From positions 1 to 45,242 of the forward strand of contig JAFZQO010000029.1 in the NCBI GenBank assembly GCA_017620335.1: a stretch of DNA of 45,242 bases, written 5' to 3'. Below the pieces are notes generated by a model. It had not been told where the DNA came from and did not search any database. It saw nothing but the letters and a program-made list of their open reading frames with translations. Positions 6,820 through 10,431 of this stretch are shown here, piece by piece. This stretch comes from Bacteroidales bacterium. GTDB taxonomy: Bacteria; Bacteroidota; Bacteroidia; Bacteroidales; UBA932. Position 1 is the stretch's first letter. Each line of letters opens with the position of its first letter. A program made the position numbers and the translations under genes.

Positions 6820-6878
6820 CCACGAATATTTGAGAAAAACGAGCATTTCGTGCTATATTGCATTACATTTCCGGAGAT

Positions 6879-7835
6879 ATGAAAAGAACCATAACCATTT
6901 TGAGCAGCCTGCTCCTTCTGATTGCCTGCGCGCCTAACGATGTCACTAAGGTTAATCTCAACAAAGCCTTCCGGCAGAAGACCGCTGCCAAGGACTTGTT
7001 CGCCCGCGTTGACGTGTTCCCGCTCTATCTTCCGGCGTCGGTCGCGCTCCCGGAGGCGCCACGCCTCGACGCCACCGACAGCCTGCTGTTCCTGACGGAC
7101 GCCTCCGGAGAACAGATCGTCGTGCTGGACACGGACGGCTCGTTCGTGACGCTGGTCGGCACCGGGGAGCCGATATCGGCCTTCTCGGCCTGCGGAAACA
7201 TGTTGGACGTCCTGTGCGGGAGCGAGGTGAAGGAATACAGTCTGCAGGATTTCTCCCTGACGCGCACCTTCTCCCTGCCCACGGACGGCGTCACGCTGAC
7301 CGGGATGCAGCGGGTGGATGAGGATGCCCTGTGGCTCTGTGGAAACAAAGAAGGCAAAGCCTATGATGGCGTGTATTTCTTCCCGCGGGACCATTTCTCC
7401 CTGACGCGTGATAATATTTTCCATACACCTGACCAAAGCGGGGATTTCTTCCGCTGCAACGACACTACCTTTTTCTTCCTTACGACGGGCCGGATCTTCG
7501 TATACGACGCGCCGAGCGATTTCGTCTTCGTGCCGTTCACGCCCGATTTCGGGAAACATGAACCCGAGGTCACGGCGGCGCAGATGACTACGGGCCACCT
7601 GTACATGCAGATGCGCCTTCGGGAGCAGGATCTGCTCCTGGTATACGACCGGAGTGGGAAGCAGAATCGCCTGCTCCGGATGACCTCCGAAGGGCTGGTA
7701 TTCCCGCTCGGAGTCATCCGGGGAGGTGTAAACTACTACTGCTGTCCGGCGCGACGGCTGGAAGAATATGTATTCCCGGGAACGGTCACCCTTCCCAAAG
7801 ACACCGATTACATCCTGTTGAGATACACCCTATAA
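6879..7835 (+). CDS. 6-bladed beta-propeller lipoprotein
   Basis: The chosen start is ATG 6879, giving a lipoprotein signal with lipobox LLIAC (Cys17); a start 7 codons upstream would lengthen the signal unnaturally. The mature 300-residue protein consists of repeated strands with 'D-S-L-L-F-L-T-D' and 'Q-I-V-V-L-D-T-D-G-S-F' units, typical of the 6-bladed propeller lipoproteins (BF3164-like / DUF5128 type) common in Bacteroidales. These are probably exposed to the periplasm or cell surface and their ligands are not known. The gene diverges from the TonB-type barrel gene and converges with cysK, overlapping its 3' end by 6 bp. Confidence 0.7.
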   Translation: MKRTITILSSLLLLIACAPNDVTKVNLNKAFRQKTAAKDLFARVDVFPLYLPASVALPEAPRLDATDSLLFLTDASGEQIVVLDTDGSFVTLVGTGEPISAFSACGNMLDVLCGSEVKEYSLQDFSLTRTFSLPTDGVTLTGMQRVDEDALWLCGNKEGKAYDGVYFFPRDHFSLTRDNIFHTPDQSGDFFRCNDTTFFFLTTGRIFVYDAPSDFVFVPFTPDFGKHEPEVTAAQMTTGHLYMQMRLREQDLLLVYDRSGKQNRLLRMTSEGLVFPLGVIRGGVNYYCCPARRLEEYVFPGTVTLPKDTDYILLRYTL

Positions 7836-8762
7836 CGGATAGTCCTCAAAAGCATACAGGACGGTTGACAGGTATCGTTCTCCGGTATCGGGGAGCAGGG
7901 CCACGATGGTCTTGCCGGCATTCTCTTCATTGGAAGCCAGGTTGAGGGCAGCGGAGAATGAGGCGCCTGAGGAAATGCCGACGAGAAGGCCTTCCCGGGA
8001 GGAAAGCAGACGGGACGCCCTGATGGCGTCGTCGTCAGCGACAGCCAGGATTTCATCCACGACGCCGCGGTCGAAGGTGGCGGGTTCAAAGCCGGCGCCT
8101 ATGCCCTGGATCTTGTGCTTGCCGGCGACGCCGGTGGAAAGGACGGCGGAAGACGCAGGCTCCACTGCGACAACTTTCACGGCGGGATTGTGCTTCTTCA
8201 GAGCCTTTCCGGTTCCGCTCACGGTCCCTCCGGTGCCGACGCCGGCGACGAAGATGTCGACCTTTCCTTCCGTATCACGCCAAATCTCCTCGCCGGTTGT
8301 GCGCTCGTGCGCGGCGGGATTGGCGGGATTCGTGAACTGGCCGAGGATAATCGCCCCTGGCGTATTGTCACGAAGTTCTTCCGCCCTGGCGATGGCTCCT
8401 TTCATGCCCGTGGCGCCCGGCGTAAGCTCCAGGGTGGCCCCAAGTGCTTTCAGGAGACTGCGGCGCTCCTGGCTCATCGTTTCGGGCATCGTAAGGATCA
8501 CCTTATAGCCCTTGGCACGTCCCACCCAGGCCAGTCCTACACCGGTATTGCCGCTGGTGGGTTCTATGATGGTAGCGCCTGGCTTCAGGATGCCGCGGCG
8601 TTCGGCGTCTTCGATCATTTCCAGGGCGATGCGGTCCTTTACGCTGCCGCCGGGATTGAAGTACTCCAGTTTGACGAGGATGTCGGCCTTCTGTCCGGGA
8701 AAAGGCTTGACTTTCAGCATCGGAGTGTTTCCGATAATCTCCGTAAGCGAATTATACACCAT
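7830..8762 (-). CDS. cysK: Cysteine synthase (O-acetylserine sulfhydrylase)
   Basis: The enzyme has 310 residues, standard for CysK. It is a fold-type II PLP enzyme that forms L-cysteine from O-acetylserine and sulfide in the cytoplasm. The PLP lysine is in LEYFNPGGSVKDRIALEMIE, the substrate loop is PTSGNTGVGLAW, and the phosphate-binding loop is GVGTGGTVSGTGKAL. The C-terminal GISSGASFSAAL and the ending LLPDTGERYLST are also typical. No serine acetyltransferase or other cys gene is adjacent. The 169 bp before the start contain a promoter, a 24-codon ORF with four consecutive Cys codons and an intrinsic terminator, so expression is probably controlled by cysteine-sensing attenuation (see the separate entries). 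Confidence 0.95.
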   Translation of the reverse strand: MVYNSLTEIIGNTPMLKVKPFPGQKADILVKLEYFNPGGSVKDRIALEMIEDAERRGILKPGATIIEPTSGNTGVGLAWVGRAKGYKVILTMPETMSQERRSLLKALGATLELTPGATGMKGAIARAEELRDNTPGAIILGQFTNPANPAAHERTTGEEIWRDTEGKVDIFVAGVGTGGTVSGTGKALKKHNPAVKVVAVEPASSAVLSTGVAGKHKIQGIGAGFEPATFDRGVVDEILAVADDDAIRASRLLSSREGLLVGISSGASFSAALNLASNEENAGKTIVALLPDTGERYLSTVLYAFEDYPL

Positions 8763-8791
8763 AACTAAACTATTAAATTATTAAACAAAAA

Positions 8792-8819
8792 CCCCTGCTC
8801 AATCAGGGATTGGCAGGGG
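8792..8819 (-). terminator. Intrinsic terminator in the cysK leader (attenuator)
   Basis: In the minus-strand RNA the 5' arm CCCCUGC-CAAUC pairs with GAUUG-A-GCAGGGG around the loop CCU: 12 bp with one bulged A. It is followed directly by UUUUUGUUU (plus strand 8783-8791). It lies 29 nt before the cysK ATG and 37 nt after the stop of the leader ORF, so it would stop transcription before cysK unless prevented. Its 5' arm (8808-8815) can pair instead with 8876-8883 inside the leader ORF. Confidence 0.85.
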
Positions 8820-8856
8820 CATATTCGTATTGCTAAATAAATATCCGTGAGAATAC

Positions 8857-8931
8857 TCAGGCATACGTCGCACCGTACCAATCATGCAGACCGGTACAGC
8901 AACAACAAATATGGGCATTTCCTGTATTCAT
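8857..8931 (-). CDS. Polycysteine leader peptide of cysK (24 aa)
   Basis: ATG 8929-8931 opens 24 codons ending at TGA 8857-8859. Codons 9-12 (8896-8907) are TGT TGT TGC TGT, four cysteines in a row, followed later by a Trp-Tyr pair. Such a run is highly improbable by chance in front of a cysteine biosynthesis gene. The RNA over the last Cys codons (8893-8900) pairs with 8872-8879. The neighbouring segment 8876-8883 can instead pair, 8 contiguous bp including one G-U, with the 5' arm of the terminator at 8808-8815. Ribosomes stalled on Cys codons would free the antiterminator and allow cysK transcription; completed translation would cover it and permit termination. The ATG lies only 6 nt after a TAnnTTTG element, so the ORF may be leaderless. 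The function is inferred from architecture. Confidence 0.8.
   Translation of the reverse strand: MNTGNAHICCCCTGLHDWYGATYA
8872..8900 (-). promoter_or_regulatory. Mutually exclusive RNA pairing segments of the cysK attenuator
   Basis: Segment 1 (8893-8900, GCUGUACC, within Cys/Cys/Thr codons) pairs over 8 bp with segment 2 (8872-8879, GGUACGGU), with two G-U pairs. Segment 2 extended (8876-8883, GAUUGGUA) is also complementary to UGCCAAUC of the terminator 5' arm (8808-8815). The two pairings cannot coexist, which is the pause-hairpin/antiterminator logic of amino-acid attenuators. Confidence 0.7.
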
Positions 8932-8937
8932 CTACCA

Positions 8938-8968
8938 CAAAAATAAGTAAAAAATTTTAAAAAGCAAA
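8938..8968 (-). promoter_or_regulatory. Promoter of the cysK leader transcript
   Basis: The minus strand carries TTTG (8965-8968) and TATTTTTG (8938-8945), separated by 19 nt: both Bacteroidota promoter elements (TTTG and TAnnTTTG) at the expected spacing. The element ends 6 nt before the leader ATG (8931), so the transcript should begin at or within a few bases of that ATG. It lies between the stop of the M28 peptidase gene (8980) and the leader, giving cysK its own promoter. Confidence 0.75.
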
Positions 8969-8979
8969 TCTTTCACGGA

Positions 8980-10431
8980 CTAAAAGAGGAAACTGACACC
9001 GAAGGCTCCCGTGTAAAGCCTGGCGTCGGGAGCCCCTTCTCCGATGAAGAGAGGGTTGAGCTGATACCGTCGCTCTCCGCTGAACTTGATCTTCCCTATC
9101 TGGAACCCTATGCTCCAGCAGATACCCCACTGGTTCTTGTCTGTCACGGGAGCAGACAGGTCCTTGATGCCGGAGTTCAGGACATGGCCGAAATAACCTC
9201 CGACCCCCAGGGTGAAGTTCACTCCCGCTTCCCCGGCGCTGAACAGAAGGGTGGCCGGAACGACGACGGATTCCTGATGATATTTGAGGGCGGATCCGTA
9301 GAGGTCCTCACCGTCGGGATATTGCGCATTGAGACGTTCGTAGAGGGCCCTGACTTCCAGCGCCGTCTTCTTGCTGATGTTGGCCTGGGCTGCGATACCG
9401 GCATCGAACCCGTCCCTGGTCTTTCCGTTGAAGGCTGCATCCGGGAACGAGATGTAGCTGTTCGCCCAAGAGACCACAGGACCGATCTCCAGTGCTTTCT
9501 TACGGCCTCCGTGTATGGCGGCAATCTTCCCGGAAGGCAGCGGGGACGGCTGGTTCGCGAAGCATTCCGTCACGTCGGCCATATAGCTCGTGATGCGGTC
9601 CAAGCCATGATAATCAATGAGCTCGGCGTCATCCTCGGGTTTGTGGTACGGCGATTTCAGACCGGTGGTCACAGCCAGGGTCGGCACGCTTTCCTTGGCA
9701 AAGCCCTGCGTGTCGGTGGCGGTGAGGATCTTGGTCTCGAAATCCTTGGCCGTGATGTCCAGCTGCATTTTCCTGGCTTCCGCTTCCAGAAGTTTCCTGC
9801 CGTCCTTAATGGTAGCGGCACCTTCCAGCTGGAGCGTCTTCCCTTCGCGCAGCCACCCGACCATGTCGATGCTCATCATCAGCTTGACCTTGTCCAGGTC
9901 CAGCTTTTCTGCCAGTGCCTTCGAGCCCCACAGTCCGCTTTCTTCAGCATCGAAGGCGGCGACTATGATGCTTCGCTTCAGCTGGTCCTGACGGGACTTG
10001 AGGATACGGGCCGCCTCAATGAGGGCAGCCGAACCGGAGGCGTTGTCGTCGGCTCCGTTGTAGATCTCGTCATCCTTGATGCCGAGGTGGTCGTAGTGGG
10101 CTCCGATAACTATATACTCGTCCTTCAATGACGGGTCATTTCCCGGAATCACCGCTACGACATTCTTGTAAGTATCCGTGCCATACATTTCGAAGGGCTG
10201 GAAGAAACCATCTTCGAAGAAGGGCTCCAGTCCCATTTCCTCGAACTGACGCACGATGTACCTCGCCGCCTTGTCGGCGTTTACTGTTCCCGCTCCGCGC
10301 CCCTTGAGGGAATCGCTGGCGAAATAATAGACGTGCCCTGTCAGCCTCTCCTGCTGCGATGACTGCGCATCGGCAATCCCGCAGAGGAGAAACATGAAGA
10401 AAGCGGCGCTGAAAATACGATACGTTTTCAT
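8980..10431 (-). CDS. Secreted M28 zinc peptidase fused to a C-terminal barrel-like domain
   Basis: The 483-residue protein has a signal peptide (1-22, ADA|Q) and an M28 aminopeptidase domain (about 30-295). All five metal/catalytic positions are visible: H112 and D114 (GAHYDH), D128 (NGADDNASG), E163-E164 (DAEESG), D189 (SIDMVGW) and H263 (YHKPEDD). M28 proteins normally end near here. This one continues for about 180 residues with alternating strands rich in Gly and aromatics (for example LFSAGEAGVNFTLGVGGYFG and a final FGVSFLF), which look like a small outer-membrane beta-barrel. The likely role is peptide or aminopeptide hydrolysis at the envelope, with the barrel possibly anchoring it to the outer membrane. 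It follows the M16 protease gene by 40 nt on the same strand and may be co-transcribed. Confidence 0.85.
   Translation of the reverse strand: MKTYRIFSAAFFMFLLCGIADAQSSQQERLTGHVYYFASDSLKGRGAGTVNADKAARYIVRQFEEMGLEPFFEDGFFQPFEMYGTDTYKNVVAVIPGNDPSLKDEYIVIGAHYDHLGIKDDEIYNGADDNASGSAALIEAARILKSRQDQLKRSIIVAAFDAEESGLWGSKALAEKLDLDKVKLMMSIDMVGWLREGKTLQLEGAATIKDGRKLLEAEARKMQLDITAKDFETKILTATDTQGFAKESVPTLAVTTGLKSPYHKPEDDAELIDYHGLDRITSYMADVTECFANQPSPLPSGKIAAIHGGRKKALEIGPVVSWANSYISFPDAAFNGKTRDGFDAGIAAQANISKKTALEVRALYERLNAQYPDGEDLYGSALKYHQESVVVPATLLFSAGEAGVNFTLGVGGYFGHVLNSGIKDLSAPVTDKNQWGICWSIGFQIGKIKFSGERRYQLNPLFIGEGAPDARLYTGAFGVSFLF

Follow-up and report, generated by a model that had tools for sequence, protein, structure and literature searches.

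A polycysteine leader with the anatomy of a classical transcription attenuator upstream of cysK in Bacteroidales

The window (the whole 45,242-nt stretch of DNA analysed here) lies on contig C29 of a 54-contig, 2.76 Mb genome of a Bacteroidales bacterium. On its minus strand lies a gene whose product was identified as CysK (429 bits against NCBIfam TIGR01139, where the cut-off is 351). A plus-strand ORF at 6858-7835 converges on this gene, with a tail-to-tail overlap of 6 bases (7830-7835), and because the downstream ORF is convergent, cysK looks monocistronic. Upstream of cysK, in the direction of transcription, we found a promoter-like element, a short upstream ORF (uORF), a spacer, a terminator with its U tract and the cysK start, in that order. 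The features are listed below with the evidence for each.

7830-8762, minus strand: cysK, encoding O-acetylserine sulfhydrylase (cysteine synthase A), the gene proposed to be controlled (NCBIfam TIGR01139)
8786-8819, minus strand: intrinsic terminator, a hairpin at 8792-8819 plus a U tract (fold, terminator scan, covariation)
8808-8815, minus strand: strand 3, within the terminator 5′ arm, antiterminator partner of strand 2 (swap test, covariation, folds)
8857-8931, minus strand: leader uORF of 24 codons, MNTGNAHICCCCTGLHDWYGATYA* (translation; Cys-run uORFs in relatives)
8872-8883, minus strand: strand 2, partner of strand 1 or, through 8876-8883, of strand 3 (fold, covariation, spacing)
8889-8900, minus strand: strand 1, overlapping the last Cys codons, partner of strand 2 at 8872-8883 (minimum-energy fold, covariation)
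8896-8907, minus strand: four Cys codons in a row (TGT TGT TGC TGT), proposed to act as the sensor (uORF translation)
8938-8945, minus strand: putative Bacteroidales-type -7 element, TATTTTTG (TANNTTTG) (sequence)
8965-8968, minus strand: possible TTTG (-33) (sequence)

The terminator reads CCCCTGCCAATCCCTGATTGAGCAGGGG (8819-8792) followed by TTTTT, and was the one terminator-like site in a scan of 8600-9100 (shuffle mean 0.5). Between the last codon of the Cys run and the end of the uORF lie 39 nt. Two pairings compete for strand 2 on the minus strand: 8900-8893 pairs with 8879-8872, and 8883-8876 (GAUUGGUA) pairs with 8815-8808 (UGCCAAUC) through 8 bp, one of them G-U. A first-pass annotation of this DNA had described a 24-codon ORF with four Cys codons, a terminator and two exclusive pairings before cysK. 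All of its coordinates hold on the minus strand, translation, terminator scan and folds bear the features out, and the parts of an attenuator that it had called complete and correctly ordered are indeed all present and in order. The sequence at 8938-8945 is presumably a Bacteroidales-type -7 element, as judged from its match to the consensus as we know it. In the 60 nt preceding the ATG of the uORF, 17 of 41 leaders had TANNTTTG (mononucleotide shuffles: mean 1.5, maximum 5), and the other 24 lacked the exact sequence. No sigma-70-type promoter was found in the scan of 8600-9100.

Ribosome-mediated transcription attenuators of the trp and his type are known from Proteobacteria. Like them, the element upstream of cysK has a leader peptide rich in codons for the product of the pathway, hairpins 1:2, 2:3 and 3:4, and an intrinsic terminator; it is unlike them in its amino acid, cysteine, in its targets (cysK, or a cysE-type gene plus cysK), in its Bacteroidales host and in the rapid turnover of its strand sequences. 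The anatomical marks of a classical attenuator were found here: a Cys-codon run in the leader ORF of a cysteine-synthesis gene, an intrinsic terminator between this ORF and the gene, a mutually exclusive antiterminator pairing with covariation, and, for an assumed footprint size, a spacing that would free strand 2. It is very probable, in our judgement, that the leader is a classical ribosome-mediated transcription attenuator sensing Cys-tRNA(Cys) before cysK. From the anatomy we infer that the promoter is used, that the uORF is translated, that ribosomes stall and that readthrough depends on cysteine, in the following way. Transcription would start just upstream of the uORF. With ample charged tRNA(Cys) the ribosome would move beyond the Cys codons. 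Strand 2 would then be sequestered, either by strand 1 or under the ribosome, the 3:4 terminator would form, and RNA polymerase would be halted ahead of cysK. Under cysteine shortage, the ribosome would stall on the Cys codons and cover strand 1, and strand 2, left free, would pair with strand 3 before strand 4 is made, so that cysK would be transcribed.

The window's leader folded at -59.2 kcal/mol, compared with -39.4 ± 3.7 kcal/mol in shuffles (z = -5.35; reached by 0 of 200), and the minimum-energy fold was the termination state, with strand 1 (8889-8900) paired to strand 2 (8872-8883) and the terminator formed. Across 20 leaders the gap between the last Cys codon and strand 2 had a median of 11 nt (interquartile range 10.75-12.25, with outliers of 18 and 27). 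A gap of 11 nt fits the end of a ribosome stalled on the Cys run when a footprint of the generally known size is assumed, and on the same assumption it agrees with the earlier proposal that a stalled ribosome leaves strand 2 free. We then blocked the RNA as far as 13 nt beyond the A-site Cys codon's first base. In a transcript ending before the terminator 3′ arm, the 2:3 pairing formed together with a spacer hairpin at all four Cys positions (-25.5 kcal/mol); in the full transcript, the minimum-energy fold, which represents equilibrium, still had the terminator. Because the antiterminator wins only before the terminator 3′ arm has been made, the switch would have to be kinetic, that is, co-transcriptional. 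This co-transcriptional switching, which we infer from the modelled folds, would be the weakest step of the argument.

The first-pass annotation had named the lack of a Cys run in close relatives as evidence that would speak against an attenuator. In the genus, Cys-run uORFs recur upstream of cysK. Of 28 usable cysK loci in the genus search, 8 had an ATG-started uORF with a Cys run in the 300 nt upstream (shuffle mean 0.04, maximum 1), and the same test on named genomes gave 13 of 78 (shuffle mean 0.38, maximum 2). Runs of Cys outnumbered those of every other residue in both sets. The genus set consisted of 29 cysK loci less L018, whose contig begins inside cysK, and the named-genome set of 80 less L096, for the same reason, and L071, with 85 nt upstream; the two sets overlap, and L070 and L091 are near-identical. 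The majority of loci (20 of 28 and 65 of 78) had no Cys-run uORF, including close relatives of the window's locus at L045, L002/L044 and L048 (CysK 93, 88 and 83% identical, respectively). The absence of the Cys run from such close relatives indicates that the element has been gained or lost. CysK itself was found in 26 of 61 genomes in the genus search; at E <= 1e-60 there was no match in 35 of the 61, nor in 15 of the 26 genomes with a completeness of 90% or more and a contamination of 5% or less, where cysteine auxotrophy or another enzyme is possible.

Individual leaders departed from the common layout. L002, which is the L044 locus (CysK 88% identical), keeps a terminator with the strand-3 sequence and has no Cys-run uORF, apparently as a decay intermediate. 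In L021 the uORF ends in five Cys codons right before the stop, without a good terminator, and this leader is possibly under a different mode of control. The 2:3 pairing is weak in L023.

Four TGY codons in a row are not rare by themselves, being present at 13 places in the window's whole genome and at 22 in a backwards control. Only 3 of the 13 places had an ATG-started frame of fewer than 60 codons (L036, L038 and L039, the last being the window's leader), and the frames at L036 and L038 overlap longer open frames; L031 and L033 had ATG-started frames of 90 and 65 codons. A Cys run arising by chance was rejected, as Cys-run uORFs upstream of cysK are far above shuffles. The same excess weighs against the idea that the Cys ORF is accidental and the hairpin simply the terminator of the upstream aminopeptidase-like gene (8980-10431), which runs in the same direction and whose transcript could end there. 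Hairpins with a T tract were indeed seen by eye before cysK without a Cys leader at L066, L056 and L012. However, a promoter-like element and the uORF lie between the aminopeptidase-like gene and the hairpin, and the upstream context varies among leaders (a tRNA-His gene is directly upstream in L049); despite this variation the uORF, strand 2 and terminator persist and covary. We therefore rejected an upstream-gene terminator, which we regard as highly improbable.

A covariance model was built from 17 leaders using helices 1:2 and 3:4 only, helix 2:3 being left out. Of 350 genomes of the genus searched with it, 57 had a match at E <= 0.05, a level at which chance would give about 17. We inspected 30 of the matches, all from the 31 best (E up to 1.7e-4), and all 30 stood at cysK, 29 of them intact and 1 a fragment; 22 were leaders outside model building and 8 had been used in it. 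Twenty-nine model matches ended 16-90 nt upstream of cysK. The remaining one of the 31 best (G001 contig 74) duplicates the L004 leader and sits where its contig stops, without downstream sequence. L140, the one inspected match at a fragment, lies directly before a short cysK remnant followed by an unrelated gene, reflecting either decay or a misjoined contig. In a second genus of the same family (g15) there were seven leaders before cysK, of which L153 is the same as the model's L047. In searches of the family and the order, most weak matches were hairpins lacking a Cys run, which we took to be false.

Covariation was analysed in 44 structure-aligned leaders, which include the 17 of the model and whose Cys codons sum to 121 TGT and 38 TGC. 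In helix 2:3, 95.9% of 345 cells were paired, compared with 15-44% in slid controls, a comparison in which the unslid register is favoured by the definition of the pairs on the window's own leader. Both sides had changed in 6 of 8 pairs, which 9 of 500 shuffles also reached, and 30 cells had changed on both sides against 9.9 in shuffles (0 of 500). For helix 1:2, 83.1% of 522 cells were paired and 7 of 12 pairs had changed on both sides (30 of 500 shuffles); further pair types in this helix were not above chance (223 of 500 shuffles). Helix 3:4 was paired in 90.8% of 305 cells, and 7 of its 7 pairs had changed on both sides. Because helices 1:2 and 3:4 are part of the model, their counts lean towards it. 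The covariation of the three pairings that had been proposed as a check was thus observed, with changes on both sides in 2:3, 1:2 and 3:4.

An alignment-free swap test gave the same picture for strand 2 and the terminator arm. In 21 of 22 leaders (L021 was left out, and the near-identical L070 and L091 were both kept), duplexes of each strand 2 with its own terminator arm averaged -17.3 kcal/mol, and swapped duplexes -13.8 kcal/mol; 0 of 20000 permutations reached the cognate mean. The own arm ranked first for only 8 of the 21 leaders, and that of the window ranked 8th, its strand-3 sequence being common. The compensating changes can be read directly from the strand 2/strand 3 pairs: GAUUGGUA/UGCCAAUC in the window, GACUGGUA/UGCCAGUC in L060, GAUUAGCGG/CCGCUAAUC in L063 and AGGAUGGUGCA/UGCAUCAUCCU in L014. 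These pairs also bear on a metabolite riboswitch or T-box with incidental Cys codons, which would share the terminator/antiterminator logic. The strand sequences vary while pairing is kept, the constant part is the reading frame with its Cys codons, and no family of Rfam 15 matched the window at or above its gathering score. A riboswitch or T-box was rejected on this evidence and seems to us extremely unlikely.

Of 42 leaders, 26 read strand 2 in frame 0 and 14 in a different frame, and in 2 it lies downstream of the stop, indicating that its conservation is at the level of RNA, not of peptide. On this reading of the alignment, the recurring peptide motif WYG is RNA strand 2. An ATG-started Cys uORF was not found in 2 of the 44 leaders (L145 and L148). 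That the uORF encodes a functional Cys-rich micropeptide, binding metal or sulfur, would account for the conservation of the Cys run among leaders that have the element; the peptides differ outside the run, however, the distance from the Cys run to the stop ranges from 12 to 60 nt, and strand 2 falls out of frame or beyond the stop in 16 of the 42 leaders. The micropeptide was rejected on these grounds, and we give it very little weight. On comparative sequence grounds, the element is real, shows conservation of its RNA wherever it is present, is tied to cysteine-synthesis genes and is built like a classical attenuator, and there is a high likelihood that it also works like one.

To our knowledge, cysteine-synthesis control in gut and rumen Bacteroidales has been little described. 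Polycysteine leaderless sORFs were reportedly described in mycobacteria by Canestrari in 2020. Cys-run leaders without terminators occur in Actinobacteria, and those of Mycobacterium lack conserved terminators, according to the accessible part of PMC1262725; for mycobacteria, PMC13236596 refers to polycysteine sORFs and to attenuation of translation, and it describes cysteine genes of M. smegmatis as under such attenuation. Like the mycobacterial leaders, as far as these sources describe them, the window's element has a polycysteine uORF upstream of a cysteine-synthesis gene. In those leaders the Cys run is near the stop, no terminator is conserved, and control in M. smegmatis is by translation attenuation, whereas the window's leader has an intrinsic terminator and a Cys run that ends well before the end of the uORF. 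These precedents would suit a mycobacteria-like polycysteine uORF that acts by translational control or Rho-dependent termination, the hairpin being incidental. Against such control, a U-tract terminator whose 7 of 7 pairs have changed on both sides lies between uORF and gene, and strand 2 has the terminator arm itself as its other partner. We consider translational or Rho-dependent control unlikely, and continue with a transcription attenuator as the preferred reading.

The closest predicted counterpart in the literature, uORFC-8-2 in Rhodobacterales, is a predicted attenuator of cysS with two tandem Cys codons and a terminator (PMC8632094). In the accessible description, it has in common with the window's element Cys codons in the uORF and first stem, a terminator-like hairpin with a U run and predicted sensing of Cys-tRNA; it differs in its cysS target, its two tandem Cys codons and its alphaproteobacterial host, the window's element being upstream of cysK. 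Within the phylum, leader-like sORFs are reported in 5′ UTRs of B. thetaiotaomicron in the accessible part of PMC7366714, and strong clues for leader-peptide attenuation exist upstream of amino-acid biosynthesis operons of Flavobacterium psychrophilum, for which the accessible part of PMC9723704 names no cysteine operon. Our literature search found no cysteine attenuator in Bacteroidota; subscription papers such as Lopatovskaya 2010, with possible Bacteroidota predictions, were outside its scope. The first-pass annotation knew of no description of a polycysteine attenuator in Bacteroidota, and our search likewise gave none; leader-peptide attenuation as such is already indicated for the phylum by PMC9723704. 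The kind of control is known, the cysteine case appears to be new for Bacteroidota, and its distribution is unexpectedly wide.

The wider distribution emerged from an order-wide model search, in which 27 of 393 genomes matched at E <= 0.003. At L168, L169 and L176, polycysteine leaders with terminators preceded two genes, first one for a serine acetyltransferase and then a CysK-like one; 2 of these 3 acetyltransferases reached the EpsC cut-off and 0 of 3 the cysE cut-off. A search with one of them gave matches in 146 of 295 genomes of the order. Among the 70 best acetyltransferase loci, a Cys-run uORF was present in 17 of 49 of the closer type (shuffle mean 0.47, maximum 2) and in 3 of 21 of the other type (shuffle mean 0.03, maximum 1), and Cys led all residues in the closer type, not in the other. 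The acetyltransferase locus of the window's own genome (L243) had no Cys-run uORF. Of 21 candidate leaders, including L205 with two adjacent Cys codons, 16 from 11 families as coded also had, by reading, a terminator and a 2:3 duplex. Left out were L217, L222, L223 and L229, in which we judged no terminator or pairing to be plausible, and L252, which has no terminator. Downstream, 13 of the 16 showed a CysK-like gene; in L236, L244 and L245 the stretch shows the acetyltransferase alone.

The strands of these cysE-type leaders, e.g. AGGAGAGG/CCTTTCCT, are unlike those of the window; the leaders are unrelated in sequence and share the layout. In the swap test, own duplexes of the 16 averaged -13.8 and swapped duplexes -10.8 kcal/mol (0 of 20000 permutations); L194 has a longest block of only 4 bp. 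The 1:2 hairpin of these leaders was judged from the local fold only. The gap from the Cys codon to strand 2 in these 16 leaders of other families had a median of 14.5 nt (13-18.75). For cysS, a rough test found a Cys-run uORF in 0 of 30 loci of the order, the best among matches in 119 genomes. Gene starts were placed here at the initial Met of the longest frame containing an H.GN motif, and runs of residues other than Cys were frequent.

The cysteine model also matched leaders of a poly-Trp type, with WW or WWW in the ORF and a terminator, and these came from four families of the order. They stand before trpE in L170, L171, L173, L179, L183 and L188 and before trpB in L161 and L180. The downstream genes of L170, L171, L173, L179 and L183 are anthranilate synthase I-like (TIGR00564, under the cut-off); L188, cut by the contig end, gave no match at 1e-60 and was named trpE from its likeness to L173. 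The downstream gene is TrpB-like in L161, from the window's own family, and TrpB in L180.

We think it reasonably likely that cysteine transcription attenuation is widespread in Bacteroidales, in 16 cysE-type leaders from 11 families and before cysK alone in Cryptobacteroides and kin, and that it is a principal control of cysteine synthesis there, with strand turnover too fast for a single RNA family. Taking this together with the same scheme in the poly-Trp leaders of trpE and trpB, leader-peptide attenuation would be a general layer of control over amino-acid synthesis in the order. If the cysteine attenuator holds, translating a tiny ORF would let the cell read its cysteine supply directly and without any regulatory protein, which would provide a testable rule for many uncultured lineages and a natural cysteine sensor for engineering gut bacteria. 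The cysteine transcription attenuators of the phylum would also be numerous enough for covariation; our literature search found no such set elsewhere.

In other orders of the class, a uORF with a terminator and a 2:3 duplex was seen in 2 of the 30 best acetyltransferase loci (L276 and L283), where polycysteine uORFs stand before cysE-cysK.
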